Positions 2,237 through 63,478 of a stretch of DNA of 64,000 nt are shown piece after piece. The notes beneath the pieces are model-generated. The model ran no database searches and was not told the DNA's origin. It saw only the letters and a list, made by a program, of their open reading frames with translations. The DNA lies in NCBI GenBank assembly GCA_025060695.1, contig JANXBH010000001.1, forward strand, positions 62,001 through 126,000. Reading direction: 5' to 3'. This DNA is from Caldifarciminota bacterium. Lineage in GTDB: Bacteria > Hydrothermota > Hydrothermia > LBFQ01 > DSFT01. The position numbers and the translations under genes were made by a program. How positions within the stretch are numbered: position 1 is the stretch's first letter; the number at the start of each line of letters is the position of its first letter.

Positions 2237-2246
2237 AAATTTTAAA
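2237..2246 (-). promoter_or_regulatory. putative -10 promoter box for pntB operon
   Basis: TTTAAAATTT on the minus strand (preceded by GC), 6 nt before the TTG start of pntB. It is back to back with the purB box on the other strand, 11 bp away. Confidence 0.6.
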
Positions 2247-2257
2247 GCTATAAAAAC

Positions 2258-2267
2258 CTTAAAATTT
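2258..2267 (+). promoter_or_regulatory. putative -10 promoter box for purB-fabG
   Basis: CTTAAAATTT, 4 nt before the ATG of purB. There is no room for a Shine-Dalgarno site between box and start, so the mRNA is probably leaderless. Confidence 0.6.
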
Positions 2268-2271
2268 TCTT

Positions 2272-3555
2272 ATGATTAAAAGATATTTATTTCCTGAAAT
2301 GGAAGAAATTTGGTCTGAAAAGAATAAGCTAAAAAAATGGCTACTAATAGAAATTACTACACTCGAAGTTCAAGTAGAAATAGGTATAATTCCAAAAGAA
2401 GCATTAAGAATAAAGGAAGAATTAAATAATTTAGACTACGATTGGTTATTAAAAAGACAATCAGAGATAGAAAAAGAAGTAGAGCACGATGTAATAGCGT
2501 TTTTAATGGCACTTGAAGAAGTTTCAGAATATGCAAAGTACTTGCACTATGGTTTAACTTCATCTGATATTTTAGATACTGCAAATGCATTGATTATAAG
2601 AGAAGCACTATATTTAATAAAGAGCGAGTACGAAAAATTTATAGAAGTTTTAAAAGATAAAGCTCTAAAGTACAAATATAGTCCGATTATGGGAAGGACA
2701 CATGGAGTATATGCAGAACCTACTACAATAGGTCTAAAGTTTCTAAATTACTACGCTGAAGCTTTAAGAAACATGGAAAGATTAGAATATTCTATTAAAG
2801 AGATAAGCTATGGGAAGCTGTCTGGCGCGGTAGGTAATTTTGCATACTTAAGTCCAATATTGGAAGAAAAAGTAATGGAAAGATTGAACTTAAAACCTGA
2901 AAAAATTTCTACTCAAATTATTCCAAGGGACAGATATGCATTTTTAGTAAATAACCTTGTTCTCTTAGCAGAGAATATAGAAAGATTAGCAATAGAAATA
3001 AGATTGCTGATGAGAACAGAAGTAGGAGAATTTATAGAACCATTCTATAAAAAACAAAGAGGCTCATCCGCAATGCCACACAAAAGAAACCCAATAAGAA
3101 GTGAAAGAATATCAGGTCTTGTAAGATTAATAAGAGGATATTTAATACCAATTCATGAAAATATTGCGCTTTGGCATGAAAGGGACATTAGTCATTCATC
3201 AAATGAAAGAATAATCTTACCAGATATTACATCCGCAATTTACTATATAGTTAAACTTTCAAGAAATATTTTAGAAAATCTCATAATTGATGAAAGTAGA
3301 ATTTCAGAAAACATGCAAAAATTCGGAAAATACTACATAACTCAACCATTTTTATTAAAACTTGTTCAAAAAGGAGTATCAAGAAAAGTTGCATATGAAT
3401 GGTTAAAGAAAATCTCTCAAAGTGAAGACTTTGAAAAAACTATCTTAAATGACGAAGAAATTAGAAGGTATTTAACTGAGGAAGAAATAAAAACTTGCTT
3501 AAATTGGAATTTTTTAAGAAATATAGACGAAATTTATAAAAGATTTGAACTTTAA
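2272..3555 (+). CDS. purB: Adenylosuccinate lyase
   Basis: A 427-residue member of the fumarase/aspartase superfamily. The signature loop SSAMPHKRNP lies near residue 264. GLTSSDILDT near residue 90 and GRTHG near residue 143 supply the other substrate-binding and catalytic residues. It performs two steps of purine synthesis: fumarate release from SAICAR and from adenylosuccinate. The length is normal for the short bacterial/archaeal type. It leads a two-gene unit with fabG, although fabG also has its own promoter-like box over the purB stop codon. Confidence 0.96.
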   Translation: MIKRYLFPEMEEIWSEKNKLKKWLLIEITTLEVQVEIGIIPKEALRIKEELNNLDYDWLLKRQSEIEKEVEHDVIAFLMALEEVSEYAKYLHYGLTSSDILDTANALIIREALYLIKSEYEKFIEVLKDKALKYKYSPIMGRTHGVYAEPTTIGLKFLNYYAEALRNMERLEYSIKEISYGKLSGAVGNFAYLSPILEEKVMERLNLKPEKISTQIIPRDRYAFLVNNLVLLAENIERLAIEIRLLMRTEVGEFIEPFYKKQRGSSAMPHKRNPIRSERISGLVRLIRGYLIPIHENIALWHERDISHSSNERIILPDITSAIYYIVKLSRNILENLIIDESRISENMQKFGKYYITQPFLLKLVQKGVSRKVAYEWLKKISQSEDFEKTILNDEEIRRYLTEEEIKTCLNWNFLRNIDEIYKRFEL

Positions 3556-3560
3556 AATTT
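3551..3560 (+). promoter_or_regulatory. putative -10 promoter box for fabG
   Basis: TTTAAAATTT, preceded by C and overlapping the purB stop codon, 4 nt before the fabG ATG. It suggests a separate promoter inside the purB-fabG junction. Confidence 0.5.
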
Positions 3561-3564
3561 TCCC

Positions 3565-4293
3565 ATGAAAACTGCTATTATTACAGGGGCAAGTAAAGGT
3601 ATAGGAAAGGCAATTGCATATAAGTTTGCACAAAATAATTACAACTTAGGTCTTATAGCAAGAAGTGAAACCCTTTTAAATGAAATAAAAGAGGACTTAA
3701 AAAAGAGTTATGGTATTGAGGTTTTGATATATATTGTGGATGTTTCAGATTATAAAAAGGCTGAGGAAGTTGTAGATGATTTTTATAAGAGGTTTTCAAG
3801 AATAGATGTTCTTGTAAATAATGCAGGTATTACTGATGATAAATTTTTAGTAAGAATTTCAGAAAGTGATTGGGATAATATAATAAGTGTAAATTTAAAG
3901 AGTGTTTTTAATTATTGTAAGTTTGTTAGTAAATACATGATAAAGCAAAGAAGTGGGGTAATTGTTAATATATCTTCTATTTCTGGTATTGTAGGAAATG
4001 CAGGTCAAACTTCCTATGCATCGACTAAGAGTGCAATAATTGGATTTACAAAATCCCTTGCAAAAGAGCTTGGAAGTAGAAATGTAAGAGTAAATGCCAT
4101 AGCTCCTGGTTTTATTTTAACTGACATGACAGAAAAGTTAAGTGAAGAAATAAAGAATAGTTATTTAGATAGAATTTCTCTTAAGAGATTTGGGACACCT
4201 GAGGAAATAGCAAATGTAGTATATTTTCTATGTTCAGACGATGCAAGCTATATTACTGGTCAAGTATTAGTAGTTGATGGGGGAATGATTTAA
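3565..4293 (+). CDS. fabG: 3-oxoacyl-[acyl-carrier-protein] reductase
   Basis: A 242-residue classical short-chain dehydrogenase. It has the cofactor motif TGASKGIG at residues 7-14, NNAG near residue 88, the active-site Ser in NISSISG near residue 137, and YASTK near residue 150. The C-terminus ends YITGQVLVVDGGMI, as is typical of FabG. It catalyses NADPH reduction of beta-ketoacyl-ACP in fatty acid synthesis. Its last 41 nt overlap the convergent ABC ATPase gene. Other short-chain reductases cannot be fully excluded, but the length and C-terminus fit FabG best. Confidence 0.9.
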   Translation: MKTAIITGASKGIGKAIAYKFAQNNYNLGLIARSETLLNEIKEDLKKSYGIEVLIYIVDVSDYKKAEEVVDDFYKRFSRIDVLVNNAGITDDKFLVRISESDWDNIISVNLKSVFNYCKFVSKYMIKQRSGVIVNISSISGIVGNAGQTSYASTKSAIIGFTKSLAKELGSRNVRVNAIAPGFILTDMTEKLSEEIKNSYLDRISLKRFGTPEEIANVVYFLCSDDASYITGQVLVVDGGMI

Positions 4294-8420: not shown

Positions 8421-9192
8421 ATTTTAAGAGAGAGTTTAAATCACTAAAGCTTTCTATTATTATGTTTGCTTTTTGTTTTATAAGCTTATGAGAAATTTTC
8501 GGAGCTATTCTCAAGTCAGAAACTTCAAACATTTCTAAATCATTTATATAATCTCCAATACTAACTACAAAACTATAGTTAAAATTTTCCCTTATGAATT
8601 TTAGAGCTTTACCCTTATTTACGCTGTTTTTTACAATATCCAATACGTATAGTCCTTTTCGCTTTCCACTTGGATAACTATAAAAGCCGCCATTTCTATA
8701 ACTTCTTAAAAATAATTCTACACTTCTAACTACATCGTAATTATAGCTTGCAACTACAATTTTATAAATATTCTTACTAAGTAAACCACCAAAGTAAATT
8801 TTATTTTCTATCCTCCAATGCTTCAGTGATATACCAAGAGAAAGCATATTTGAACTAAATAACGAAAAGTCCTTATAGAATATGGTAAAGTATGCATTGC
8901 TATAATTTTCTATAAGTTTTAGAATATTGAAGCTCTCTACGAAATTCATACAATTACTATAAAAAACATTGCCATTTATATCACAAACAAGTGCTCCGTC
9001 AAAGCATATAAATGGTGCTCTAATGTCTAATAGCTTTACAAAATACAATGCACTTAAATAACTTCTTCCAGTTGCTATTGTAATTTCAAAGTGGTTTCTA
9101 ATATTATTTATAAATTCAAGCTTATCATCACTTATTCTATCTTGCTTATCTATTAAAGTTCCATCTAAGTCAATCACTAAAAGCTTTTTCAA
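8413..9192 (-). CDS. HAD-superfamily phosphatase, Cof type
   Basis: A 259-residue type-IIB HAD hydrolase. Motif I is DLDGTLID at residues 8-15, motif II the Thr of ATGRS near residue 41, then a conserved Lys in the KGKAL region, and motif IV GDYINDLEMF near residue 213. The cap domain lies between motifs II and III. Members dephosphorylate sugar phosphates and flavin precursors, but the substrate cannot be told from sequence. It overlaps the TonB receptor stop and the ftsW start by a few nt in the same operon. Confidence 0.85.
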   Translation of the reverse strand: MKKLLVIDLDGTLIDKQDRISDDKLEFINNIRNHFEITIATGRSYLSALYFVKLLDIRAPFICFDGALVCDINGNVFYSNCMNFVESFNILKLIENYSNAYFTIFYKDFSLFSSNMLSLGISLKHWRIENKIYFGGLLSKNIYKIVVASYNYDVVRSVELFLRSYRNGGFYSYPSGKRKGLYVLDIVKNSVNKGKALKFIRENFNYSFVVSIGDYINDLEMFEVSDLRIAPKISHKLIKQKANIIIESFSDLNSLLKYA

Positions 9193-11003
9193 AATAACCA
9201 GTCAAGCTGAAATCTTACATTTCTTGAAGGAAGAGGTAAAGATGTGGGATCAAAGCTTCTATATGCAACTACATTATTTAAATTGTTCACATAAATTGTA
9301 AATTTTATATTCTCTCTAATTGAATATCCAACTGCGGAATTTAACATTAAATACTGAGGTCTACTTGCTTGAATATCACTTCCTTCAGTCCTAAAGCTAT
9401 ATATTGCATTTAAAGAAAATATTAGTCTATGTATACTATAATCAAACTGAGAGAATATCTTATTTGGCGGAATATCTGAAAGCTTTATTTCTTTATCCTC
9501 TCTTTTTGCACGGCTGTCCATAAATGTATAACCTATGGTAAATCTTGATGTGTTTAATCTTAAAGTAGTAAATAAGCTAACTCCATATATGTGTGAAAAA
9601 TCCTCAAGATTTACATATGTAAATATAGTATCACCATTAGATGCCAATGTATCTAACTTTGTCATTTCTATATAGTCTAATATAGTATTATAAAAACCAC
9701 TAATTTCAAAATTTAAGTTATTTAAGCTTGTCCCAATAGTAAAGTCAGTATTTATTGCCCTTTCAGCTTTTAAGTTTGGATTGCCAGTTAAAAAGCCCCT
9801 TGTCCTTTGCTCATAAACCTTTGTTTCAGTAAGTTCAGGAAATCTATATGCAAATTGTAAATTACCTCTTACATAGTTAAATTGATTTATATTGTATTTT
9901 GCTCCAATATGACCTGAGGGTGAAAAATTGAAATTATTTTCTTGGTTGTATAGCCCAATTCTAAATGCATATGATAAAAGTAATTGATTAAATGTATTTG
10001 AATTAAATAGCGTTATGCCGAAATTATTATAATGTGCATTCTTTAGTGCATTATATTGATATTGCGAATTTTTAAAAATTCTAGAATTTACATTTATTCT
10101 TCCAAAGTAATCTACTATTAAAAACCTGTAATTATAAGTGATGCCGAAATCTTGACCAATGTAGTTTGTTTCACTTGTATCCTTCCTTATTGTAGTACTT
10201 ATGAAATTATAGTAATGATAACCAATGTTAAAATTATTAGAATTTACAACAAAGAAAAATTGCTCGTCTTTCGGATATATTCTAACTGCACTTCCAAAGA
10301 TTGCTCTATAAAGGTCAACAATTCTAAAATATGCAAACTTAAATTCAATATCTCTATACTTATATGCAGTTAAGAAATTGTATTTTTTAAATGATGAATT
10401 GTTTGATTTTACAAAAGAATTTGTCCAAAGACTTTCCTTTAATGTAGTATCAGGATAGAAATAGTTATCTGAAATATTTAGTCCCCCTGCTACATATAGA
10501 TTTTTTAAGGGCTTATATCCTGCAAATAGCTTATAGTTATTTCCATTAGTTCCATAACCTAAGCTAATTTCATTTTTAGAATTAACCCCCTTTAAATAAT
10601 ATATAATACTGCCACCCATTGCACCTGAACCAAAAGAGGAAGCACCTGAGCCTTCAAGTATTTCTACACCCTCAAACATATTTGAAATTGCGAAATAAGT
10701 AGAAGGTCCAATTTCCCTATCAGTAGTCATTCTATATCCATCTAATAATGCAATTGTTCTAAACCTTGCAAGTCCTCTTACTGTGGGAACTGCACCATGA
10801 GCATCCCTTCCAATAAATCCGATATTAGGAAGCTTTACAAATCCTTCTTCTATCTTATCGTATGCACTAATCATAATCTGACTTTCGTCCTTTGACAAGA
10901 ACCTACTTATCTTAGTATTCTCTACTTTCTTATAATAGAAAGCTCTTACTTCGACTTCAGGTAAAGTATAAAAAGTATCTTCTAAAGTTAATATGAAAAG
11001 CAT
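9189..11003 (-). CDS. TonB-dependent outer-membrane receptor
   Basis: A 604-residue receptor. The plug domain starts around residue 14 (LPEVEVRA) and includes VRGLARFRTIALLDGYRM and VEILEGSGASSFGSGAMGG. The rest is an alternating beta-barrel sequence that ends in an aromatic residue (LDWLF), as needed for BAM recognition. The size and plug resemble BtuB-like receptors, and the ligand is unknown. The start ATG is pinned 7 nt after a promoter-like box, so the export signal can be at most about 13 residues (MLFILTLEDTFY). It is the first gene of the operon that ends at 4253. Confidence 0.9.
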   Translation of the reverse strand: MLFILTLEDTFYTLPEVEVRAFYYKKVENTKISRFLSKDESQIMISAYDKIEEGFVKLPNIGFIGRDAHGAVPTVRGLARFRTIALLDGYRMTTDREIGPSTYFAISNMFEGVEILEGSGASSFGSGAMGGSIIYYLKGVNSKNEISLGYGTNGNNYKLFAGYKPLKNLYVAGGLNISDNYFYPDTTLKESLWTNSFVKSNNSSFKKYNFLTAYKYRDIEFKFAYFRIVDLYRAIFGSAVRIYPKDEQFFFVVNSNNFNIGYHYYNFISTTIRKDTSETNYIGQDFGITYNYRFLIVDYFGRINVNSRIFKNSQYQYNALKNAHYNNFGITLFNSNTFNQLLLSYAFRIGLYNQENNFNFSPSGHIGAKYNINQFNYVRGNLQFAYRFPELTETKVYEQRTRGFLTGNPNLKAERAINTDFTIGTSLNNLNFEISGFYNTILDYIEMTKLDTLASNGDTIFTYVNLEDFSHIYGVSLFTTLRLNTSRFTIGYTFMDSRAKREDKEIKLSDIPPNKIFSQFDYSIHRLIFSLNAIYSFRTEGSDIQASRPQYLMLNSAVGYSIRENIKFTIYVNNLNNVVAYRSFDPTSLPLPSRNVRFQLDWLF

Positions 11004-11010: not shown

Positions 11011-11020
11011 AAATTTTAAA
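11011..11020 (-). promoter_or_regulatory. putative -10 promoter box for TonB receptor operon
   Basis: TTTAAAATTT preceded by C on the minus strand, 7 nt before the ATG. It is 18 bp from the opposing box of the 11055 gene. Confidence 0.6.
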
Positions 11021-11038: not shown

Positions 11039-11048
11039 TTTAAAATTT
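11039..11048 (+). promoter_or_regulatory. putative -10 promoter box for 11055 operon
   Basis: TTTAAAATTT preceded by C, 6 nt before the ATG at 11055. Confidence 0.6.
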
Positions 11049-11054: not shown

Positions 11055-11276
11055 ATGAAATTGAATGTTGGAACAACTGATAGAATGATAAGAATTAGTT
11101 TAGGAATTGTTTTAATCGTCTTTTCAATATCGTTGCAAATTTCAGTCATTGTAAAACTTATACTAATAGTTATTTCCATAGCTTTAATAATAACTGCAAT
11201 ATTCGGTTTTTGCCCTGCATATAAGATTTTTAACTTCAATAGTAAAAAAATAGACCCACTTGAAAGGAGAAAATAG
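11055..11276 (+). CDS. DUF2892 / YgaP-like small membrane protein
   Basis: A 73-residue protein with the DUF2892 layout: MKLNVGTTDRMIRISLG at the N-terminus, two closely spaced membrane helices, then FGFCPAYKIFNF with a conserved Cys. Similar domains are found alone or fused to rhodanese (YgaP). The function is not established. The following GTG shares the last base of its TAG stop, so it is translated together with the DedA gene. Confidence 0.8.
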   Translation: MKLNVGTTDRMIRISLGIVLIVFSISLQISVIVKLILIVISIALIITAIFGFCPAYKIFNFNSKKIDPLERRK

Positions 11277-14035: not shown

Positions 14036-14455
14036 TTATACTCCCAGTTTTTCTAAAATCTTCTTAAGTTCATCTCTATGTCTTGCTTCATCCACTATGA
14101 TGTTTTCTAACTGAACTTTAATATCAATATGTCCAAGTTTCTCGGCAAGTTTTGCATGATTTGCATATCTTTCAATTGTTTTTTCCTCTGCATTTAGTAA
14201 TTCCTCTATCATCTCTCTTGGATCTTCCGTAATTTTAAAAGATTTTGGAACGACAGAAGGAGTTCCACCAAGTGCAGAAATTTTGTCAGATAAATACTTT
14301 GCATGTTCAAGCTCGTCATTTATTTCATTTAAAAAGAACTCCTTTAACTCTACTCTATTTATACCCTTTATAAGTGCAGAATAAGTAATATATTGAATTA
14401 TGGCACTATACTCAAATGCCAAGTCTTCGTTTAGTGCATCTATGAGCTCTTTCAT
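14036..14455 (-). CDS. Ferritin-like di-iron protein
   Basis: A 139-residue four-helix bundle protein with two ExxH-type iron-binding segments: FEYSAIIQYI and NDELEHAKYL in the first half, and EEKTIERYANH and VDEARHRDEL in the second. This is the bacterioferritin/ferritin-like arrangement. Placement between sufC and sufB, with ATGA overlap to sufC and a 2-nt gap to sufB, suggests it stores or delivers iron for Fe-S assembly, or protects it from oxidants. A strong Shine-Dalgarno GGAGG at 14463-14467 precedes the start by 7 nt. Confidence 0.8.
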   Translation of the reverse strand: MKELIDALNEDLAFEYSAIIQYITYSALIKGINRVELKEFFLNEINDELEHAKYLSDKISALGGTPSVVPKSFKITEDPREMIEELLNAEEKTIERYANHAKLAEKLGHIDIKVQLENIIVDEARHRDELKKILEKLGV

Positions 14456-15225
14456 AGTTTTACCTCCTCCTTTTCCTCTATACCATATCTTAGATAACCT
14501 TCACTTTCAAGCTCTTGAGCTAATTTATAGTCCCCCTTATCTACAATCTTTCCATCAATAATTACATACACGTAGTCTGGCTTAATATAATTTAAAATTC
14601 TTTGATAGTGAGTAATAATAATTACACCCATATTATTCTCCTTTACCAATCTATTTACATTTTCTGAAACAATCTTCACTGCATCTATGTCAAGACCGGA
14701 ATCTATCTCATCTAATATAGCTATTTCTGGTTTTAAAACTGACATTTGAACTATTTCGGTTCTTTTCTTTTCCCCACCAGAAAATCCTACATTTAAAAAT
14801 CTATCTATCATCTCTTCTTTCATACCTGCACTAACAAGTGCATTTTTTAATTCCTTTCTAAATTCCATAACATTTGGTTTTTTATCGGTATTTTCAAACC
14901 TTTTTGCATAACTTTGCCATAAAAATGTAGAAAGTCTTACTCCGTCTATTTCAAGAGGATGCTGAAATGCAAGAAATATTCCAAGTTTTGCTCTTTCATC
15001 GGGCGAAAGTTCTAATATATTTTTATCTTTGTAAATAACTTCCCCTTCTATAACTTGATATTTTGGATGACCCATTATAGCATATGCAAGTGTAGACTTT
15101 CCACTACCATTTGGACCCATAATCGCATGTATTTCACCCCTTTTAACTTCAAAAGAGACACCCTTAAGAATTTCATTCTCTTCTATCTTAACTCTTAAAT
15201 TTTTTACAATAAGTTTTTCAGACAT
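14452..15225 (-). CDS. sufC: Fe-S cluster assembly ATPase SufC
   Basis: A 257-residue ABC ATPase of the SufC type. Walker A is GPNGSGKST near residue 36. The region AFQHPLEIDGV is typical of SufC, followed by the signature FSGGEKKRTEIVQM, Walker B EIAILDEIDSGLDIDA and ITHYQRIL. SufC binds SufB (and SufD where present) and drives assembly by ATP hydrolysis. The ATG is 4 nt after a promoter-like box, so it leads the operon. Confidence 0.96.
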   Translation of the reverse strand: MSEKLIVKNLRVKIEENEILKGVSFEVKRGEIHAIMGPNGSGKSTLAYAIMGHPKYQVIEGEVIYKDKNILELSPDERAKLGIFLAFQHPLEIDGVRLSTFLWQSYAKRFENTDKKPNVMEFRKELKNALVSAGMKEEMIDRFLNVGFSGGEKKRTEIVQMSVLKPEIAILDEIDSGLDIDAVKIVSENVNRLVKENNMGVIIITHYQRILNYIKPDYVYVIIDGKIVDKGDYKLAQELESEGYLRYGIEEKEEVKL

Positions 15226-15229: not shown

Positions 15230-15239
15230 AAATTTTAAA
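15230..15239 (-). promoter_or_regulatory. putative -10 promoter box for suf operon
   Basis: TTTAAAATTT preceded by C on the minus strand, 4 nt before the sufC ATG. Confidence 0.6.
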
Positions 15240-15298: not shown

Positions 15299-15308
15299 TT
15301 TAAAATTA
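15299..15308 (+). promoter_or_regulatory. putative -10 promoter box for alaS
   Basis: TTTAAAATTA preceded by C. It lies inside the longest possible alaS reading frame and 5 nt before an in-frame GTG at 15314, which argues for the shorter protein. Confidence 0.5.
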
Positions 15309-18706: not shown

Positions 18707-18924
18707 TCATTACAGGAACAATTTCCCCCACAACAGCAACTGTGATTTATGGAACTTAATATAAGTTTAGTGTAGTATTCTTGATCCTCATTGAACTTTT
18801 TAATACACTCATCTGAACAAAATGTAAGAAGATACTCATCTACTTGATAAGTCAAGGTATTTTCATTATAATCTACGTTCTCCCAACATACTGGGCAAGT
18901 TAAAATTGCATATCTTGGTGTCAT
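18703..18924 (-). CDS. Small Cys-rich YHS/TRASH-like protein
   Basis: A 73-residue protein. CPVC at residues 10-13, then VDYNENTLTYQVDEYLLTFC, then CIKKF, resembles the YHS/TRASH metal-binding fold. The C-terminal 13 residues (HSCCCGGNCSCNE) add five more Cys and a His, suggesting a second metal site. It could be a zinc or copper binding factor; no function is assigned. It has its own promoter-like box over the stop codon of the upstream lyase gene and overlaps fmt by ATGA. Confidence 0.65.
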   Translation of the reverse strand: MTPRYAILTCPVCWENVDYNENTLTYQVDEYLLTFCSDECIKKFNEDQEYYTKLILSSINHSCCCGGNCSCNE

Positions 18925-18928
18925 ATTT

Positions 18929-18938
18929 AAATTTTAAA
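18929..18938 (-). promoter_or_regulatory. putative -10 promoter box for YHS-like gene and fmt
   Basis: TTTAAAATTT preceded by GC on the minus strand, 4 nt before the ATG. The TAA stop of the upstream lyase gene lies inside the box. Confidence 0.5.
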
Positions 18939-20288: not shown

Positions 20289-20298
20289 AAATTTTATA
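20289..20298 (-). promoter_or_regulatory. putative -10 promoter box for beta-eliminating lyase
   Basis: TATAAAATTT preceded by C on the minus strand, 5 nt before the ATG. Confidence 0.5.
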
Positions 20299-32862: not shown

Positions 32863-32869
32863 ATTGAAT

Positions 32870-34003: not shown

Positions 34004-34009
34004 TGACCT

Positions 34010-44168: not shown

Positions 44169-44173
44169 ATTCA

Positions 44174-44183
44174 AAATTTTAAA
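44174..44183 (-). promoter_or_regulatory. putative -10 promoter box for YtkA-like/cusB
   Basis: TTTAAAATTT on the minus strand, 5 nt before the ATG at 44168, overlapping the stop of the tolC-like gene. Confidence 0.5.
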
Positions 44184-45228: not shown

Positions 45229-45238
45229 GTTAAAATTT
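45229..45238 (+). promoter_or_regulatory. putative -10 promoter box for cusA
   Basis: GTTAAAATTT, 4 nt before the TTG start at 45243. Confidence 0.5.
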
Positions 45239-51433: not shown

Positions 51434-51907
51434 TTAGAATATTGCAACTCCTGAAAAAACACAGGTCGGTCCATCAACAATAGCGGAAGAAGACTTAATT
51501 TCAATAAAGTCTATATCTATTTTTCTCCTTTGCATGGCTTCAATTGCCATATCGTATGCTAATTTTCTTGCCTCTTCTTCATTAAAATAACCACTTACTT
51601 CCATAATTACTCCTACACTCTGTCTATTTTTTGGAATAGCAACTGAAACCGCACATGAAATTACCCTCCCATACTCATTAGATATTAAATATCCATATGC
51701 AATAGGAAGAATTGAACCTTCTTTTAAATCAATACTATCTACAATCTCTATATTAGGAGGAACTATACTTGAAACTTTTATAAGATTATAATTTCCTACA
51801 CCTGCAGATATTAAAGCATCATCAAATGCATTTAATAAAGTCTTTCCTCTTCCTATACCTGAGCAAAGATATATTCTTTTAAGCTCGCCAAATAAAGGGA
51901 ACATCAT
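51434..51907 (-). CDS. pdaD: Pyruvoyl-dependent arginine decarboxylase
   Basis: A 157-residue proenzyme. The self-cleavage site is KVSSIVPP near residue 43, where the second Ser becomes pyruvoyl. GRGKTLLNAFDDALISAG precedes it, and PIAYGYLISNEYG and a Glu in GVIMEVSGYF follow. It converts arginine to agmatine, the entry to polyamines. The gene lies between two aminopropyltransferase genes and overlaps the upstream one by 29 nt. ATG 51907 is used, and a second ATG follows directly. Confidence 0.93.
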   Translation of the reverse strand: MMFPLFGELKRIYLCSGIGRGKTLLNAFDDALISAGVGNYNLIKVSSIVPPNIEIVDSIDLKEGSILPIAYGYLISNEYGRVISCAVSVAIPKNRQSVGVIMEVSGYFNEEEARKLAYDMAIEAMQRRKIDIDFIEIKSSSAIVDGPTCVFSGVAIF

Positions 51908-52787
51908 CTTTTATAACTATACCTTTTTCCTCAGCAGCATTTCTTAAATATTTCGGTATAGCAAAAACTGCACTTTGAACAGCAGGATAGTAGTATTTAA
52001 ATTGATTCTGAATTGACTTAAATCTTTCATTTATAGATGAAAAACTAATATTTTCTGGATCTCTTGATTTACTTGCAATTACAAAAGCCCAAGGTAGTTG
52101 AAACGAGAACATAAAGGTCCAATATATTTTAACTATGGGAAATATTGTTTTCAATGTTTTTACTAAGCTTGCTGCAAAATTAGGATATAACGGATCTGCA
52201 CTACCTGCTTGAGCAACAAATATACCATCCGAATTTAGTTTATTATACAGAATACTATAAAACTCCTTTGTAAACAACTTTATAGACGGTCCTTGCTCGA
52301 TAGGTTCTGTTAAATCAGATATAATAACATCATATATAATGCTTGTTTCTTCAACAAATCTTCTTGCATCTGTGTAGTATATTCTTGATTTTGGATTTTC
52401 AAATGCACCTTCACTCCACTCAGGTAAATATTCTTTACATAAATTTACTAACTCTTCATCTATATCTACCATGTAAGCTTCTTTTACACTTTCATGTTTT
52501 AAAACTTCCCTTAATGTCGCACCCTCACCTCCTCCCATAATTAAAACTCTTTTTGGGCTTGGATGTGAAAACATGGCTATATGTGTAAGTGCTTCATGAT
52601 AAATATATTCGTCAACTTGTGCGGACTGAATTTTATCATCTAAAAACAATGTTTTTCCGAAAGGCTCAACATCCAAAATCTCTACTTTTTGGTATTTAGT
52701 TCTACCACTGTAAATAATTTTTTTAATTTTATAAGAGAATAACAGGCTATCAGTATGTTTCTCTACAAACCACATTCCTCCAAGCAT
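51879..52787 (-). CDS. ACL5-like aminopropyltransferase (thermospermine/long-chain polyamine type)
   Basis: A 302-residue SpeE paralogue. It has LFLDDKIQSAQVDEYIYHEAL near residue 50 and MGGGEGATLREVLKH near residue 84. The catalytic loop is SDLTEPIEQGPSIKLFTKEF, which replaces the DSTDP of normal SpeE and resembles ACL5/thermospermine synthases (DL.DP.E.GP...LYT). It may use spermidine or agmatine. The ATG is 6 nt after a promoter-like box, and it heads a five-gene operon with pdaD, speE, an unknown and the UbiA fusion. Confidence 0.85.
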   Translation of the reverse strand: MLGGMWFVEKHTDSLLFSYKIKKIIYSGRTKYQKVEILDVEPFGKTLFLDDKIQSAQVDEYIYHEALTHIAMFSHPSPKRVLIMGGGEGATLREVLKHESVKEAYMVDIDEELVNLCKEYLPEWSEGAFENPKSRIYYTDARRFVEETSIIYDVIISDLTEPIEQGPSIKLFTKEFYSILYNKLNSDGIFVAQAGSADPLYPNFAASLVKTLKTIFPIVKIYWTFMFSFQLPWAFVIASKSRDPENISFSSINERFKSIQNQFKYYYPAVQSAVFAIPKYLRNAAEEKGIVIKDDVPFIWRA

Positions 52788-52793: not shown

Positions 52794-52803
52794 AAATTTT
52801 AAA
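52794..52803 (-). promoter_or_regulatory. putative -10 promoter box for polyamine operon
   Basis: TTTAAAATTT preceded by C on the minus strand, 6 nt before the ATG. Confidence 0.6.
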
Positions 52804-56408: not shown

Positions 56409-56834
56409 TCATACCTCATCCAGTTTTATTTTAGATATCTCAGATCTTTTGTATACTTTACCCGATACAACTACTTCATTTTCGTTAAATTGTTCCAATC
56501 TCCCACCAAAAGTGGCACCATTTTTTAAAAATAGTTTAACTTTCTTAGATACTGCCCATCTAAGTTCTCTGTCTTTATTTAATTCCCTGTCAAGACCGGG
56601 AGATGAAACTTCCAATACATACCTTTCTTCTATTATATTTTCAGCATCAAGTATAAGAGATATTTCTCTACTAAGTTTTTCTATTTCTTTTATAGTAATG
56701 CCACCATCTAAGCGATCTACGAATATTTTTAAAATGCCATACTTGCCACCTTTGTATTCAATATCCACTAAAACATAACCATATGCATCTATAATTGGTT
56801 TAATAGCTTTTTCTACTTCCAATTCAACTTGCAT
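56409..56834 (-). CDS. rimP: Ribosome maturation factor RimP
   Basis: A 141-residue RimP. It has VDIEYKGGKYGILKIFVDR near residue 23, GGITIKEIEKLSREIS near residue 43 and YVLEVSSPGLDREL near residue 70. It assists 30S subunit maturation. First gene of the rimP-nusA-infB-DUF503 operon, with an ATG 7 nt after a promoter-like box. Confidence 0.94.
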   Translation of the reverse strand: MQVELEVEKAIKPIIDAYGYVLVDIEYKGGKYGILKIFVDRLDGGITIKEIEKLSREISLILDAENIIEERYVLEVSSPGLDRELNKDRELRWAVSKKVKLFLKNGATFGGRLEQFNENEVVVSGKVYKRSEISKIKLDEV

Positions 56835-56841: not shown

Positions 56842-56851
56842 AAATTTTAAA
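56842..56851 (-). promoter_or_regulatory. putative -10 promoter box for rimP-nusA-infB operon
   Basis: TTTAAAATTT preceded by C on the minus strand, 7 nt before the rimP ATG. Confidence 0.6.
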
Positions 56852-56858: not shown

Positions 56859-58316
56859 CTAAATTTCCCAAAAGCTAACTTTGTGCTTCCAAGAATGAGT
56901 CTTTTGTGTTTGCTGTATTGTTTTTTTATTTAAATTTATAGAATTTGCAATATCTAAAAGGATTTTCGTTGGCTTCTTTTGAGAATATTTAAACTCTTCA
57001 ACAAACTTAGTTGTATAGTTAGCACTTTTAAAATCTTCACTACTAAAGATTTCTATTAGATAATCAATATTAGTTTGAACTCCAAAAATTCTATATTCCT
57101 TTAATGCACATATAATTCTACTTATTGCCTCATTTCTATTATTTCCATATACTATAAGTTTGCTAATCATTGGATCGTAATATACTGGAATTTCATAACC
57201 CAAATATACTCCACTGTCTACTCTTATGTATGGTCCCGCTGGTTCAATTAGAAATTCTATTTTTCCGGGACTTGGAATAAAGCCATTCATTGGATCTTCC
57301 GCATAAATTCTTGCTTCAATTGAATAACCTCTTGGAGTTATATTCTTTAAATAACTAATATCTTCCCCATTTGCAATTTTTATTTGTATTTCAACAAGGT
57401 CTATATTATATCTCCACTCAGTTATAGGATGTTCTACTTGAAGTCTTGTGTTCATTTCTAAAAAGTAGAAGTTTTTGTTTTCATCAAATATAAACTCAAC
57501 TGTCCCTACATTTTCATAATTTATAGCTCTTGCAAAATTTATTGCACTTTCAAACAGTTTCTCTCTTATTCTATCATCAATATATGGACTTGGTGATTCT
57601 TCTATAATCTTTTGGTGTCTTCTTTGAATAGAACACTCCCTTTCTCCAAGTGCTAATACATTTTTATATTTATCAGCAACTATTTGAACTTCAATGTGTC
57701 TCGGTTTTGATATGTATTTTTCAAAATAGATAGTTCCATCGCCAAATGCACTTTCCGCTTCTTTACTTGCTAACTCATATTTTTCCAAAAGTTCGTCCTT
57801 GTTATATACTATTCTCATACCCTTACCACCACCACCCTTTGCTGCCTTTATCATAAGTGGAAATCCTATTTCCCTTGCATATTTTTCCGCATCATTAAAA
57901 TTATTTATACCAGGAGAACTTGGCAATATTGGAACATTTACTTTTTTTGCAATTTCCTTTGACATAATCTTATCACCTGCAAGTAATATACTCTCTATAG
58001 AAGGTCCTATGAATATTAATCCTGCTTCTTTTACTTTTTTTGCAAATTCAGGATTTTCCGATAAAAATCCATATCCGGGATGAATGGCATTAGAATTGGA
58101 CTTTATTGCAATCTCTATAATTTTGTCCATATTCAAATAACTCTTAATACTTTCAGGAGGTCCAATATAGTATGCTTCATCACTTAAAAGGACATGTAAG
58201 GAATTTTTGTCAGCATCTGAATATATAGAACAATAAGGAATAGATAATCTCTTTAAGGTTCTAGCTATTCTTAAGGCTATTTCACCCCTATTTGCTATAA
58301 GGACCTTTTTTATCAT
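56859..58316 (-). CDS. accC: Biotin carboxylase (acetyl-CoA or pyruvate carboxylase subunit)
   Basis: A 485-residue biotin carboxylase. It has KVLIANRGEIALRIARTLK at the N-terminus, HPGYGFLSENPEFA near residue 80, the Gly-rich ATP loop AAKGGGGKGMRIV near residue 158, HIEVQIVAD and GERECSIQRRHQKIIEESPSP near residue 228, and LEMNTRLQVEHP near residue 286. The C-terminal tail beyond the usual 450 residues suggests a PycA-type subunit as an alternative. No biotin carrier gene is adjacent. Confidence 0.92.
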   Translation of the reverse strand: MIKKVLIANRGEIALRIARTLKRLSIPYCSIYSDADKNSLHVLLSDEAYYIGPPESIKSYLNMDKIIEIAIKSNSNAIHPGYGFLSENPEFAKKVKEAGLIFIGPSIESILLAGDKIMSKEIAKKVNVPILPSSPGINNFNDAEKYAREIGFPLMIKAAKGGGGKGMRIVYNKDELLEKYELASKEAESAFGDGTIYFEKYISKPRHIEVQIVADKYKNVLALGERECSIQRRHQKIIEESPSPYIDDRIREKLFESAINFARAINYENVGTVEFIFDENKNFYFLEMNTRLQVEHPITEWRYNIDLVEIQIKIANGEDISYLKNITPRGYSIEARIYAEDPMNGFIPSPGKIEFLIEPAGPYIRVDSGVYLGYEIPVYYDPMISKLIVYGNNRNEAISRIICALKEYRIFGVQTNIDYLIEIFSSEDFKSANYTTKFVEEFKYSQKKPTKILLDIANSINLNKKTIQQTQKTHSWKHKVSFWEI

Positions 58317-58552
58317 TTTTTTAAAAATAAAATAATTAATGTGGCTAAAAATATAACTATGTTTAATATGGTAAGAAAAACTATTGCTGCAGATATATTT
58401 TTTATCATTGATATATCTTTCATAAGATTATCACTTGTTTTGTGATAGTCCTGGACTGTTCGCTTGATGTCTATCCACATATCTTCTACTTCCTTTAAAA
58501 CCAAATACAATGTTCTTAAATCATCTTTTTCTTTGTTTGGTTCGTTTTCCAC
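58313..58552 (-). CDS. Small single-helix membrane protein upstream of accC
   Basis: A 79-residue protein starting with GTG, 5 nt after a promoter-like box. The first 50 residues are charged and helical (coiled-coil prone), then comes one membrane helix (AAIVFLTILNIVIFLATLIIL) and KK. No family is recognised. Its stop overlaps the accC ATG by 4 nt, so it is the leader cistron of the carboxylase. Confidence 0.6.
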   Translation of the reverse strand: MENEPNKEKDDLRTLYLVLKEVEDMWIDIKRTVQDYHKTSDNLMKDISMIKNISAAIVFLTILNIVIFLATLIILFLKK

Positions 58553-58557
58553 AAATG

Positions 58558-58567
58558 AAATTTTAAA
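58558..58567 (-). promoter_or_regulatory. putative -10 promoter box for accC unit
   Basis: TTTAAAATTT preceded by GC on the minus strand, 5 nt before the GTG, and 5 bp from the opposing ccdA box. Confidence 0.6.
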
Positions 58568-58572: not shown

Positions 58573-58582
58573 CTTAAAATTT
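58573..58582 (+). promoter_or_regulatory. putative -10 promoter box for ccdA
   Basis: CTTAAAATTT, 6 nt before the ATG at 58589. Confidence 0.6.
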
Positions 58583-58588: not shown

Positions 58589-59440
58589 ATGGAAGAAGTA
58601 AATATTATTAGTGCCCTTATTGCAGGTTTCTTGTCATTTCTATCACCTTGTGTATTTCCACTTATCCCTGCATATATTTCGTATATTTCAGGTATTTCCA
58701 TTAAGGACCTTTCAAATTCAAGAATTTCAACAAATACCATAGTAAATCTAATTTCCTTTATCTTCGGATTTTCAATTATATTTATATTATTTGGTGCAAG
58801 TGCAACATTTATCGGTCAAGTACTTGCACAGAATAAGCTACTAATATCAAAGTTTGCAAGTTTAGTAATTATTGTTTTTGGTTTAAATTTTATTGGAATT
58901 TTCAGATATAAAATTCAACTTCAACACAAAAAACTTATCAAAATTCTATCTTGGATAGTGTTAGCACTATTAATTATAGCTTTTTACGATGTTTTCAAAA
59001 ACTGGTTATTTCTTCTATTTTCAGTTATTTTAATTACTCTATTTAATTATTTGAATCTCATTGATTTTGAATTTTTAAACTATGAGAAGAAGCTAAATGT
59101 AAATACTACAAGAAGAGGTTTAGTATCTTCACTCATACTTGGAAGTTCATTTGCATTTGGCTGGACACCCTGCATAGGACCAATTTTAGCAAGTATATTA
59201 TCACTTGCAGCAATTCAAGAGACTGTATATCAAGGTATTATACTTTTATCGTTCTATTCACTTGGACTTGGTATTCCATTTTTCCTTGCAGGCATATTGA
59301 CTGATGCTTTACTTAGAAGTGTAAAGTTTATGAAAAAATTTTTCGGTATAATTGAAGTCATTAGTGGTATTTTACTGATAGTTATTGGTATACTTATATA
59401 CAACGATGCATTCACAATATTTGCATCATTTTCTTCTTAA
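58589..59440 (+). CDS. ccdA: CcdA/DsbD-type thiol-disulfide membrane transporter
   Basis: A 283-residue membrane protein. The two conserved Cys of the family are in FLSPCVFPLIPAYISYISG near residue 20 and FGWTPCIGPILASILSLAA near residue 192. It carries reducing equivalents from thioredoxin to the periplasm, for cytochrome c maturation or disulfide repair. A region between the two halves is longer than in a minimal CcdA. It overlaps convergent YfhO by 15 nt. No partner thioredoxin is adjacent. Confidence 0.9.
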   Translation: MEEVNIISALIAGFLSFLSPCVFPLIPAYISYISGISIKDLSNSRISTNTIVNLISFIFGFSIIFILFGASATFIGQVLAQNKLLISKFASLVIIVFGLNFIGIFRYKIQLQHKKLIKILSWIVLALLIIAFYDVFKNWLFLLFSVILITLFNYLNLIDFEFLNYEKKLNVNTTRRGLVSSLILGSSFAFGWTPCIGPILASILSLAAIQETVYQGIILLSFYSLGLGIPFFLAGILTDALLRSVKFMKKFFGIIEVISGILLIVIGILIYNDAFTIFASFSS

Positions 59441-61711
59441 TGAGAATAATAATATGGAAAAGACTAAAACCATAAAAGTAAAAATGGAAATTATTAAAGA
59501 CGAAATTTCTAATTTTGGTTCATATTTAAAAACTACTACATGACTTCCTTTATCTAATGCAATAGCCATTTGAAGATAGTTAACTATATAAATTTTCTTT
59601 TCTTTCCCATTAACGAAAGCTTTCCACTGCTTATGGTAATTATTGGAAAAGACTAAATATGCAGGATTTTCTAAGTCAACTTTAAGCTTTGCATAATTTT
59701 CAGATAAATTCATAACCTCAATATTTCCATTTATTTTATCTAAGTTTATTTTCTCAACCGGCTCACTTTCAAAAATAAGCTTTCCTTGATAATTTCTTAC
59801 ATCCGAAATAGGATTATTTGAAACTTTGTACGAACTGGCTAAATAAAAAATAGGATAATAATTTGGATTTTCGTAAATTTCGTATATTCCATCATCGTAT
59901 ACCTTTTTATAGTTTCTTACATATTCCTGGAAAAGTTTTACAATTGGTTCGTCTGATACTTCTGGAAGTTTTTGTGTAATTACAAATCTAATAGATAGAA
60001 CATCACTTAATTTAGGATTCTTTAGTATTTCAGTTGTTGTTGCAGGATTTAGCATAAGTCTATTTTCTGCTCCAATAATACTAAATAGTCTGTGAGGTTG
60101 AACTCCGTGATGACCACCAATTGTTCTAATTTCTTTTAGTGTAAAATAATTGTCATCTGTTCTGTATGCAAATGGAAATACATTAAAATAACCTTTTTGA
60201 TTTTTTAAAAACATTACCACACTATCACTTTTGAATATATGCTCTTCGTTATCTACATATCTAATAAAGTTCTTTGAAATTAAATATAGGTCAATACCAC
60301 TTATAATGCTTAGAAATAAAACTAAGTTCCTATGGCTTATCCAATTATTTATGTGGGAAAGTATTAGAACTGATGCTAATGTAGAGAATAAAAATGTCAT
60401 AAATATAGAAAATCTTATTTTGTCAATTTCATACAAAACTATTTGGGCTTTATCAATAGGATTATTAAATATGCCGTTTATCAAGGATTCAGATGAGAAT
60501 AACCAGAAAATTAAAAGCGAAATTGGAATTAAAAATAGAAGTTTAGTATAAACTCTTGGATTTTCCTTTAAATTTTTTAGTGTAATAGCGGAAATTAAAA
60601 TTGCGGAAAATACGCAAAGATAAAAAGCCATAGAAGGTGCTCTAAATTTTTGATATGCAGGTAGTACAGTCCATATGATTTTATATAAAAATGTAGAACC
60701 TCCAAGTGAAATAATTGAAAAGAAAACAAAAGAAAATATTAGAAAATTTCTTAGTCTGTTTTCTATCTTGTTTAAAAAACTTAAAATAAAGAGTAAAAAT
60801 ACTACTATACCAAAGTATTCGGAATTTATTTTAAATGCATTAGGACCCCAATAGAATGAATAGTTAGTATCTTCTAATGAAAAACCACTAAATCCACCAA
60901 TGAAAGAAGATATAAAATCTTGCCATCCAAGTGACCAAGTAGTAGCAAACTCATAACTTTCAATTTGTCCTCTTTGAGAATAGTTAATAGTATAATCGTA
61001 TATAGGTAGGAATTGACCAAAGAAAATTAGTATAGAAAGAAGCAAACTAAAAATGCCAAGAGAAAAAACCCTTATAAGTTTTTTATTATTTTCTTTAAAA
61101 ACAAAATAGCTTTCATATAATACATAGAAAAATGTAAAAAGGACTAAGTAATAAATCATTTGAATATGAGCATTTAGAGAAATTAAGCTTGTAAATAGTG
61201 ATAAAAGCAAGGCATTTTTAAAGCTTGGATTTATGAAGATTTCTCTTAAATATAGAAAGTAAAAGGGAAGAATTGAAACTATTGCAAATTTTCCAAGATG
61301 ACCACTATATAAATAACCAAAAAATATACCACTTAGCATAAAGGATACAGCGGAAAATAGTGCAATAACTTTATCACTCAATATTCTATTTACCAAAATG
61401 AACATCCCAATACCTGCAATAATTAAATGAAAAATTATCCAATAGTTTAAAAAGAACTTTGCAGGCAAAATAATAAGTAATAGAAAAAATGGATAAAAAC
61501 CAAATTGTAATGTTGGTATTGTAGGCATGCCATAAAAGATATAAGGATTCCAAAAAGGAAAACTTCCGCTTAGTATTTCTTTTCTTATAAACTCATAGAG
61601 ATATATGCCATCAGTTATCGCATCGGTCATTATAAGTAGATTTCCAAGCAATGCTTTAAAAAGTAAAAATATTGGAATAATAGAAACTATTAGTATTTCT
61701 AAATTTTTCAT
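59426..61711 (-). CDS. YfhO-family membrane protein, second copy
   Basis: A 761-residue polytopic protein, a distant paralogue of that at 25102. About eleven helices include FPFWNPYIFYGMPTIPTLQFG near residue 55 and AHIQMIYYLV near residue 180. A soluble part carries FRAPSMAFYL earlier and NNYHKQWKAFVNGKEKKIYIV near residue 690, the YfhO C-terminal strand. A final helix and RRK follow. Probable GT-C type glycosyltransferase. The ATG is 8 nt after a promoter-like box. Confidence 0.8.
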   Translation of the reverse strand: MKNLEILIVSIIPIFLLFKALLGNLLIMTDAITDGIYLYEFIRKEILSGSFPFWNPYIFYGMPTIPTLQFGFYPFFLLLIILPAKFFLNYWIIFHLIIAGIGMFILVNRILSDKVIALFSAVSFMLSGIFFGYLYSGHLGKFAIVSILPFYFLYLREIFINPSFKNALLLSLFTSLISLNAHIQMIYYLVLFTFFYVLYESYFVFKENNKKLIRVFSLGIFSLLLSILIFFGQFLPIYDYTINYSQRGQIESYEFATTWSLGWQDFISSFIGGFSGFSLEDTNYSFYWGPNAFKINSEYFGIVVFLLFILSFLNKIENRLRNFLIFSFVFFSIISLGGSTFLYKIIWTVLPAYQKFRAPSMAFYLCVFSAILISAITLKNLKENPRVYTKLLFLIPISLLIFWLFSSESLINGIFNNPIDKAQIVLYEIDKIRFSIFMTFLFSTLASVLILSHINNWISHRNLVLFLSIISGIDLYLISKNFIRYVDNEEHIFKSDSVVMFLKNQKGYFNVFPFAYRTDDNYFTLKEIRTIGGHHGVQPHRLFSIIGAENRLMLNPATTTEILKNPKLSDVLSIRFVITQKLPEVSDEPIVKLFQEYVRNYKKVYDDGIYEIYENPNYYPIFYLASSYKVSNNPISDVRNYQGKLIFESEPVEKINLDKINGNIEVMNLSENYAKLKVDLENPAYLVFSNNYHKQWKAFVNGKEKKIYIVNYLQMAIALDKGSHVVVFKYEPKLEISSLIISIFTFMVLVFSILLFSLRRK

Positions 61712-61719: not shown

Positions 61720-61729
61720 GAATTTTAAA
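61720..61729 (-). promoter_or_regulatory. putative -10 promoter box for second YfhO gene
   Basis: TTTAAAATTC preceded by C on the minus strand, 8 nt before the ATG. Confidence 0.5.
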
Positions 61730-61736: not shown

Positions 61737-62714
61737 CTAACATATAGGCTCGTACAGGTTTTTCTTTACACATTCCTTGAACTTGTTTACCCTTTCCAAT
61801 CTTAAAACTTTCCTACTTTCAGCTGACTTAAATCTTTCAATCTCATAGTCCCTCCAAGGATTAAATTGCTTTAATGGCTCAACTGAAACAAAAGTCATAT
61901 AACTACTTGCAACTTTATATCTTGTTGAAGTAAGTGGCTCTTCTTTTATTATTTTTACACCAACTTCAATAGAGCGATGACCTACATAGTTTATACCAAG
62001 GTAGAAATGCAAGATATCTCCAGTTCTTACAGGACAAATAAAGTCAAACTCATCGATTGATGCAGTAAACGACGGGCTTTTCGCATACTGAACACTTAAA
62101 ATTCCACCAAGCTCATCTAACTTCTCAAACAAATAACCTGCAAACATTGTATTAGAATATATAGTTTCATATGGAAAAACAAGTTTTGCAGAATACAAAC
62201 TATAGGTAGGGACTTTTGATGTATCTAAGTCATTTATGTCTAATTTTCTATTCTTTATCCTTTCTAATCTATACGCCCTTTTTTTAAGACCCCATTCGTA
62301 TATTTGTTTTTCTTTTTCATCCTTTGGGACAACTTTTATGTCTAGCTTTCTTGGTTTTCCGCTTTCATCCACTGCAACGTATCCAAAATGAGCAAGTGTG
62401 ACTACTTTTAATTCATTATCCTTTGTTCTTTTAAATACAGTAACACCTACTTCTAAAGAACTATTAAAAGTTGCCTGCACTCTTGATCTAAAAATAAGTG
62501 TATCTCCACTATGTACAGGTTCTATAAAATCTACGCTATCCATAGAGCCAATTACAACTGGTCCTTGTGCTACTTTATTTGCAGAAAGAAGACTTGCCTG
62601 ACTTATAAGATATAACATTTTACCGCCAAACATTGTATTTGCAGGATTTATAAAATAAGGAAACACATATTCGTATATTTCTATAACTGTATCAGAAATA
62701 TTTATTTCCTTCAT
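61737..62714 (-). CDS. Acyl-CoA thioesterase with two hotdog domains
   Basis: About 325 residues. Two hotdog repeats are visible: NPANTMFGGKMLYLISQASL with GSMDSVDFIEPVHSGDTLIF in the first half, and YSNTMFAGYLFEKLDELGG with ASIDEFDFICPVRTGDIL in the second. This is the double-hotdog layout of acyl-CoA thioesterases related to YciA/ACOT. I choose the ATG at 62712-62714, 4 nt after a promoter-like box, over the TTG at 62718-62720. The box lies within the 3' end of rdgB. Confidence 0.86.
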   Translation of the reverse strand: MKEINISDTVIEIYEYVFPYFINPANTMFGGKMLYLISQASLLSANKVAQGPVVIGSMDSVDFIEPVHSGDTLIFRSRVQATFNSSLEVGVTVFKRTKDNELKVVTLAHFGYVAVDESGKPRKLDIKVVPKDEKEKQIYEWGLKKRAYRLERIKNRKLDINDLDTSKVPTYSLYSAKLVFPYETIYSNTMFAGYLFEKLDELGGILSVQYAKSPSFTASIDEFDFICPVRTGDILHFYLGINYVGHRSIEVGVKIIKEEPLTSTRYKVASSYMTFVSVEPLKQFNPWRDYEIERFKSAESRKVLRLERVNKFKECVKKNLYEPIC

Positions 62715-63294
62715 CTTCAAATTTTAAACTTAGAAAATCTCTAAGCTTTTTTAATGCAATAGCTCTATGACTAATTTTATTTTTAACTTCCATTTCTATT
62801 TCCCCAAATGTTTTTCCAATTGGTTTATAGTAAAATATTGGGTCATAACCAAAACCTTTATCTCCTCTTATTTGAAAACCAATTTCACCCTCCACCTTTC
62901 CCTCAAATACATGGCTTTCACCGTTGTTATTTATAAACACAATGACACAATGAAAATACGCACTTCTATTTTCTTTATCTTTCATAAGTTCTAAGATTTT
63001 TTCTAAATAGTCTGGATTTCCTTTTTGAAACTCAGCTGAATGAACACCGGGAAAACCACCTAACGCCTCTATAAAAATACCAGAATCATCAGATATTACT
63101 GGCATTCCTGTTATTTCATGAACTTTCTTTGCCTTAATTAGTGCATTTTCTAATAGCGTCTTTCCAGTTTCCTCTATTTGAATATCTAAACTTATATCTT
63201 CCAAAGACAGAAATTCTATATCCTTAAAGTCCTTGAAAAAATTTTTAATTTCTTCTATTTTATGTTTATTTCTTGAAGAAATTAGAATTTTCAG
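62692..63294 (-). CDS. rdgB: XTP/dITP pyrophosphatase RdgB, apparently CTG start next to tRNA-Tyr
   Basis: About 200 residues. My translation extends past the internal ATG at 63204 and gives (M)KILISSRNKHKIEEIKNFF, the standard RdgB N-terminus with the substrate-binding SRNKHK. Later come SDDSGIFIEALGGFPGVHSAEF, GEIGFQIRGDKGFGYDPIF and ISHRAIALKKL. The family Met position is a CTG at 63292-63294, and no ATG, GTG or TTG is available. The CTG is 3 nt after the tRNA-Tyr 3' end. It hydrolyses non-canonical purine nucleoside triphosphates. Confidence 0.9.
   Translation of the reverse strand: MKILISSRNKHKIEEIKNFFKDFKDIEFLSLEDISLDIQIEETGKTLLENALIKAKKVHEITGMPVISDDSGIFIEALGGFPGVHSAEFQKGNPDYLEKILELMKDKENRSAYFHCVIVFINNNGESHVFEGKVEGEIGFQIRGDKGFGYDPIFYYKPIGKTFGEIEMEVKNKISHRAIALKKLRDFLSLKFEDEGNKYF
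62719..62728 (-). promoter_or_regulatory. putative -10 promoter box for thioesterase
   Basis: TTTAAAATTT on the minus strand, inside the rdgB coding region, 4 nt before the ATG at 62714. Confidence 0.5.
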
Positions 63295-63297
63295 TAG

Positions 63298-63382
63298 TGG
63301 GCAGGGTAGGATTTGAACCTACGTAGGGCGTTAGCCCAGCAGGTTTACAGCCTGCCCCCGTTGGCCGCTTGGGTACCTGCCC
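63298..63382 (-). tRNA. tRNA-Tyr (anticodon GTA)
   Basis: A class II tRNA. The acceptor stem GGGCAGG pairs with CCTGCCC and the discriminator is A. The anticodon loop CTGTAAA gives GTA. A long variable arm and T-loop GGTTCAAATCC are present. CCA is not encoded. It lies 4 nt downstream of tRNA-Thr and 3 nt upstream of rdgB. Confidence 0.97.
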
Positions 63383-63386
63383 AAAA

Positions 63387-63459
63387 AGCCAGCGGGCGGA
63401 CTCGAACCGCCGACCTGCTGATTACAAATCAGCCGCTCTACCAACTGAGCTACGCTGGC
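63387..63459 (-). tRNA. tRNA-Thr (anticodon TGT)
   Basis: The acceptor stem GCCAGCG pairs with CGCTGGC and the discriminator is T. The anticodon loop TTTGTAA gives TGT, the D-arm is GCTCAGTTGGTAGAGC and the T-loop GGTTCGAGTCC. CCA is not encoded. The 5' end is 9 nt after a promoter-like box. Confidence 0.97.
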
Positions 63460-63464
63460 AAGGC

Positions 63465-63474
63465 TTTATAATTT
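63465..63474 (+). promoter_or_regulatory. putative -10 promoter box for C25 peptidase gene
   Basis: TTTATAATTT preceded by C, 6 nt before the ATG at 63481. Confidence 0.5.
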
Positions 63475-63478
63475 TAAA
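63469..63478 (-). promoter_or_regulatory. putative -10 promoter box for tRNA-Thr/Tyr-rdgB transcript
   Basis: TTTAAAATTA preceded by C on the minus strand, 9 nt before tRNA-Thr. It overlaps the opposing box of the C25 gene. Confidence 0.55.

Follow-up and report, generated by a model that had tools for sequence, protein, structure and literature searches.

We analyzed a 64,000-nt stretch of DNA (the window; G000:C11:62001-126000) from a Caldifarciminota bacterium, whose genome spans 1.497 Mb in 77 contigs. The window holds pntB-like, purB, fabG, sufC, alaS, adk, asnS, coaX, rimP, ccdA and cusA-like genes as well as genes for tRNA-Leu, tRNA-Glu and tRNA-Thr, and ahead of each lies the same short box, which we propose to be a promoter -10 element. 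As shown in Table 1, the box recurs on both strands. The exact 10-mer, TTTAAAATTT, is present 25 times in the window, and there are 165 copies with at most one mismatch, as compared with 107 ± 11 in shuffled sequence. Fifteen of the 25 exact copies are positioned 4-8 nt upstream of a start codon or tRNA, two others precede coaX and a 73-codon open reading frame (ORF) absent from the ORF list, and the remainder are mostly within genes. An earlier, sequence-only reading had placed the box ahead of pntB, purB, fabG, sufC, adk, asnS, rimP, ccdA and cusA and 8-9 nt before the mature 5' ends of three tRNAs. These placements proved correct, the distance being 8 nt for tRNA-Leu and tRNA-Glu and 9 nt for tRNA-Thr. 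Its further example, coaX, also has the box, but no ATG, GTG or TTG stands beside it and an in-frame ATA is found instead.

The box is not peculiar to the window. Across the genome, of which 1.488 of 1.497 Mb was rebuilt (29% GC; 43.5 kb masked), we called 1412 ORFs with our own hexamer-based caller. Since this caller settles on whichever start codon comes first behind a stop, its choice is blind to the box. The string CTTTAAAATTT occurred 352 times, versus 88 times for its reverse. Among the 352 copies, 238 were at most 15 nt before the start of a called coding sequence, 24 preceded a near alternative start and 20 preceded a tRNA, which makes 282 copies no more than 15 nt ahead of a start. 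An equal density inside genes, which would have told against the sequence-only reading, was not observed: 19 copies lay within genes, although called genes make up 94% of the sequence. Most scrambled controls of CTTTAAAATTT land mainly inside genes.

The same reading had predicted a sharp peak in distance to the start codon, and the genome bears this out. The exact 10-mer fell 3-9 nt before the start in 153 of 382 divergent first genes, where its frequency at positions 30-90 nt upstream would predict 2.0. Aligning 272 sites revealed that the claimed 10-mer, while real, was too short. The conserved unit is a nearly invariant 13 nt, RCTTTAAAATTTT, made up of a purine, C, T and T, the hexamer TAAAAT, and three further T. 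Numbered as a -10 element, it has a purine at -16, C at -15 (89%) and T at -14 (80%), and some boxes read TTTATAATTT, the core of which is the canonical TATAAT. A matrix of this unit trained on 32 tRNA promoters alone matched 257 of the 382 divergent first genes at a gap of 5-12 nt, where the gap is counted from the end of the hexamer to the start codon. Dinucleotide shuffles gave a mean of 10.5 matches (maximum 21), and the in-gene chance was 0.6% per gene. Counting near alternative starts, a box at a gap of 5-11 nt preceded 465 of the 1412 ORFs; among first genes the share was 60% overall and 70% for the divergent ones.

The gap distribution has a sharp edge. One gene has a gap of 4 nt and seven have 5 nt, followed by 86 at 6 nt, 83 at 7, 55 at 8, 70 at 9, 30 at 10 and 17 at 11. 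In a bacterial promoter 6 nt separate the -10 hexamer from +1, so the edge falls where the start codon would become the first transcribed codon. Downstream of the hexamer, positions +7 (a purine) and +8 (C) keep their place relative to the box, both at tRNAs (C frequency 0.56) and in genes with gaps of 9 and 10 nt (0.46 and 0.38). Among boxed divergent genes, 60% have T as the base just before the start codon, as compared with 40% of unboxed internal genes, which would fit many transcripts starting on the A of ATG after a pyrimidine. All such start points are predictions made from the box.

Stable RNA genes carry the same element. A box precedes 34 of 44 tRNAs at gaps of at least 7 nt, mostly 7-15 nt, and the stretch past it is a short leader to be trimmed; the 16S rRNA has a box at -72. 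Placing the box at the distance of a -35 element or an archaeal TATA box would put the transcription start inside tRNAs. A hexamer near TATAAT, a start edge about 6 nt on and use at tRNAs and 16S rRNA are what a sigma-70-type promoter would display. The presence of the box at tRNAs and 16S rRNA also means that it is not a translation signal, as the sequence-only reading had argued. The opposing view, in which the box is an A/T-rich ribosome-binding motif that replaces the Shine-Dalgarno (SD) sequence, as proposed for other SD-poor bacteria, would explain why it sits near start codons and why boxed genes lack SD sites. It would also require two unrelated signals to look identical, and the 16S tail keeps CACCTCC, an intact anti-SD. 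We therefore consider a translation signal extremely improbable.

SD usage separates the gene classes. SD 4-mers were rare in boxed divergent genes (0.4%), as compared with 11% in an in-gene control and 33% among unboxed internal genes. That operon-internal genes rely on SD sites, as the sequence-only reading held, is thus true of a part of them. With the anti-SD intact, the genome appears to combine SD-led and leaderless translation. A strong box and a predicted leader of 0-5 nt characterize 352 first genes, none of which had an SD in the leader, which is too short for one. In another 43, the strongest box lies at a distance that predicts a leader of 12-26 nt, and 37% of these have an SD. The latter group could be taken to indicate that the boxes are genuine -10 elements while most mRNA comes from other promoters upstream, resulting in longer leaders in the cell. 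We regard this as very unlikely given that boxed genes lack SD sites and that the starts of doubly boxed divergent genes are a median of 41 bp apart.

These divergent pairs also bear on how little else the promoters contain. In agreement with the sequence-only reading, no consistent -35 element emerged: among the 272 aligned sites, upstream columns mostly carried less than 0.1 bit of information, and matches to TTGACA at 15-19 bp spacing showed no clear excess, at most a weak one untied to the -35 position. Sigma-70-type promoters commonly have this hexamer about 17 bp upstream, although some members lack it. Upstream enrichment of 5-mers traced back to the box in reverse complement, that is, to the partner promoter of divergent genes. 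For 164 of the 186 promoters in doubly boxed divergent pairs, the would-be -35 falls in the neighboring gene, its box or its leader. Most such pairs have two boxes back-to-back, as do adk and asnS with 38 bp between their starts. In 13 boxed divergent pairs the starts are less than 30 bp apart, and several of these share one palindrome, such as CATAAGCTTTAAAATTTTAATATG, which would fit a single symmetric -10 with two divergent starts. Where a box is shared, the two transcription starts are predicted to lie about 15 bp from each other. Within the window, the tRNA-Thr box overlaps that of the gene at 63481, making 63465-63478 a shared near-palindromic promoter.

Partial symmetry (e.g., CTTTAAAATTTTAAAG occurs) and a sequence far more fixed than a usual -10 could instead point to an operator, at which a global repressor or nucleoid protein acts over unrelated promoters. 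Geometry led us to reject this explanation, to which we assign a very small chance. The box is strand-specific, with a fixed gap and a sharp edge at 6 nt, its natural TAAAAT and TATAAT variants match a -10, and no other promoter element is visible. Moreover, a separate promoter would not fit into divergent intergenic regions that measure 18-49 bp.

Taken together, strand-specific placement, the gap edge, tRNA and 16S use, SD-free boxed genes, the lack of a -35 and conservation in orthologs support the -10 and leaderless interpretation of the sequence-only reading, whose sequence-level predictions were borne out wherever we could check them. We estimate a probability of roughly 0.93 that the box is a -10-only promoter element giving leaderless or near-leaderless mRNAs in most first genes. 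The box would be the housekeeping -10 (TAAAAT, sometimes TATAAT, at -12 to -7), extended by R(-16), C(-15), T and T upstream and by three T downstream. A holoenzyme with the primary sigma factor would read it essentially without a -35 and initiate about 6 nt past the hexamer. Transcription of most first genes would then begin on the start codon or up to about 5 nt upstream, and tRNA and 16S rRNA transcripts would begin from this box too, their short leaders being removed by processing. The 70S ribosome would bind the 5'-terminal start codon of leaderless mRNAs, and operon-internal genes would use overlap with the previous gene or SD sites.

Several observations weigh against this interpretation. 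About 30% of divergent first genes are unboxed, the seven genes with a 5-nt gap and coaX with its ATA misfit a strictly fixed start point, and the start codons rest on our own ORF caller. Some unboxed divergent first genes are miscalled genes or starts, as 39% of the unboxed have TTG starts, and others may use other sigma factors. We checked for non-canonical start codons after boxes and found no general habit of using them.

The box is conserved among close relatives. In a genus-mate (G032), 16 of 19 boxed first genes keep a box 5-12 nt before the start, whereas the flanks upstream have diverged. Several orthologs in a member of the same family (G033) have TTTAAACTTT-like variants near the start, and some in a member of the same order (G037) have TATAAT. 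The patterns TATAATN{6,9}ATG and TAAAATN{6,9}ATG exceeded their reversed controls order-wide, with 152 versus 2 matches in G037 and 279 versus 34 in G033. The exact box is not phylum-wide, as CTTTAAAATTT was clearly enriched in the genus only and less so in the family. The host's asnS is nearest (64% identity) to that of genomes named candidate division WOR-3, and in the pattern counts its class is that of WOR-3-named genomes and a Ca. Hydrothermota genome. In other phyla, TATAATN{6,9}ATG outnumbered its reverse 12-fold in an Aminicenantes genome (G151; 123 versus 10) and 17-fold in an Anaerolineales genome (G163; 52 versus 3), suggesting that these two may also have many leaderless genes. The pattern was not enriched in Atribacteria or Calescibacterium.

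We next consider the sigma factor that would read the box. An RpoD-like ORF (G000:C44:20297-21923, minus strand) scored 343 bits against TIGR02393, for which the cut-off is 354, and the alignment of its protein to primary sigma factors of solved structure extends through region 4. The genome thus encodes a primary sigma factor with regions 2 to 4. Its region 2.4 is WWIRQAIIRAIADHARIIRIP, in which Ile, His and Ile face T440, Q446 and T449 of E. coli. A pattern search at residue 440 returned Ile in this genome only and Thr in seven order-mates of the next family; the I, T and V patterns were all absent from G032, G033 and G034. Any family-wide link between residue 440 and the box is a lead only. 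It is possible, though we hold it as a tentative idea, that the holoenzyme of this genus is a -10-only machine in which a sigma factor with changed residues in its -10/extended -10 reading region reads the 13-bp RCTTTAAAATTTT with no -35, promoters measure about 20 bp and leaderless translation is the default in first genes. If so, this would let divergent genes sit at a spacing of about 41 bp or draw on one palindromic box between them. The RpoD-like gene is itself preceded by an SD-like site (AAAGGAGG), and no box was seen in the 60 nt upstream of it. The gene of a smaller RpoD paralog and its divergent neighbor share a 20-bp near-palindromic box (G000:C1:37057-37080).

Known promoters resemble parts of this arrangement. 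Extended -10 promoters have TGn upstream of TATAAT, and the box is similar in that additional conserved bases, of a kind that can replace a -35, adjoin the hexamer on its upstream side. It differs in their identity, as the aligned sites have C(-15), T(-14) and a purine at -16 in place of T(-15)G(-14). TA-like signals (-10, TANNNT) about 12 bp before starts mark leaderless genes in many bacteria, and leaderless genes with such signals exceed 20% in Actinobacteria and Deinococcus-Thermus (Zheng et al. 2011, PMC3160421). The genes described here likewise have a -10-like hexamer at a short fixed distance (about 10-12 bp before the start), no SD and a predicted transcription start at the start codon. 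Unlike the TA-like genes, they have a nearly invariant 13 nt, and about 60-70% of first genes are involved. Deinococcus deserti, for which a review cites up to about 60% leaderless genes (PMC9031893), shares this majority-leaderless usage, in a different phylum; here the usage is predicted from sequence. In E. coli, bidirectional promoters with a symmetric shared -10 have start-to-start distances of 18, and also 10 and 23 (Warman et al., PMC12825309). The near-palindromic boxes could similarly serve both directions, except that the predicted distance is about 15 bp and the mRNAs in both directions would lack leaders.

Having a -10 box ahead of leaderless genes is therefore already known. What sets the present case apart is a long fixed box with C(-15), the lack of a -35 and divergent promoters of 18-50 bp. 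In the literature collection that we searched, no paper connected leaderless mRNA to WOR-3 or Hydrothermae. On our interpretation, an uncultured lineage whose signal is unusually clean would join the majority-leaderless bacteria. It would also offer a natural case of promoters seemingly working without a -35, with two leaderless genes packed into 18-50 bp. Minimal bacterial promoter size and the sigma residues that set the extended -10 become testable here. In practice, the box gives a direct means of revising start-codon calls and detecting small genes in these genomes, as with alaS and the missed 73-codon ORF, respectively.

Table 1. Boxes in the window, given as positions of the 10-bp core, and the features that follow them.
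Box	Strand	Sequence	Distance	Feature	Remark
2237-2246	-		6 nt	TTG of pntB-like 842-2230	
2258-2267	+	CTTAAAATTT	4 nt	ATG of purB 2272-3555	divergent to pntB box
3551-3560	+		4 nt	ATG of fabG 3565-4293	
11011-11020	-		7 nt	ATG of TonB-receptor-like 9189-11003	
11039-11048	+		6 nt	ATG of 73-aa ORF 11055-11276	
15230-15239	-		4 nt	ATG of sufC 14452-15225	
15299-15308	+	TTTAAAATTA	directly ahead	internal in-frame ATG of alaS	
18929-18938	-		shortly before	ATG of 73-codon Cys-rich ORF ahead of fmt	
20289-20298	-	TATAAAATTT		ATG of tryptophanase-like 18934-20283	
22309-22318	+	ATTAAAATTT		TTG of 22324-22806	
24543-24552	-		8 nt	mature tRNA-Leu	
24581-24590	+	TTTAAAATTG	8 nt	mature tRNA-Glu	
25087-25096	+	ATTAAAATTT		25102-27168	
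27666-27675	-		4 nt	ATG of adk 27134-27661	
27683-27692	+		7 nt	ATG of asnS 27700-28995	
32835-32844	-		6 nt	ATG of 31602-32828	
32853-32862	+	CTTAAAATTT	adjoining	TTG called for 32864-33343	box-predicted start slightly downstream
34010-34019	-			coaX	in-frame codon at expected distance is ATA
34033-34042	+		7 nt	ATG of RNase II-like 34050-35600	
36731-36740	+	TTTAAAATAT	4 nt	ATG of 36745-38478	
44174-44183	-		overlapping	TTG called for 43770-44174	
45229-45238	+	GTTAAAATTT	4 nt	TTG of cusA-like 45243-48236	
52794-52803	-		6 nt	ATG of 51879-52787 (speE-like)	
56842-56851	-		7 nt	ATG of rimP 56409-56834	
58558-58567	-		5 nt	GTG of 58313-58552	
58573-58582	+	CTTAAAATTT	6 nt	ATG of ccdA 58589-59440	back-to-back with 58558-58567
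61720-61729	-	TTTAAAATTC		ATG of 59426-61711	
62719-62728	-			in-frame ATG slightly inside ORF 61737-62720	
63465-63474	+	TTTATAATTT	6 nt	ATG of gene at 63481	TATAAT core
63469-63478	-	TTTAAAATTA	9 nt	mature tRNA-Thr	overlaps 63465-63474

Convergent genes of the genome overlap by a median of 8 bp. A search for class A RNase P RNA (RF00010) gave no hit in the genome, which is 95% complete. In several places within the window, the box suggests a different start codon than the longest ORF. The start of alaS is probably the internal ATG near 15314 (plus strand) and not the longest-ORF ATG at 15278, that of 43770-44174 (minus strand) is probably the ATG two codons further in, and the ATG slightly inside 61737-62720 (minus strand) is likely the true start of that ORF. 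The ATA of coaX (within 33311-34019, minus strand) lies just before the CoaX N-terminus (VGLVDIGNS) and reflects either rare start-codon usage or an error in the sequence. The Cys-rich ORF (MTPRYAILTCPVCWENVDYNE...), which together with its box occupies 18703-18938 (minus strand) and was missed by the caller, ends at the start of fmt.

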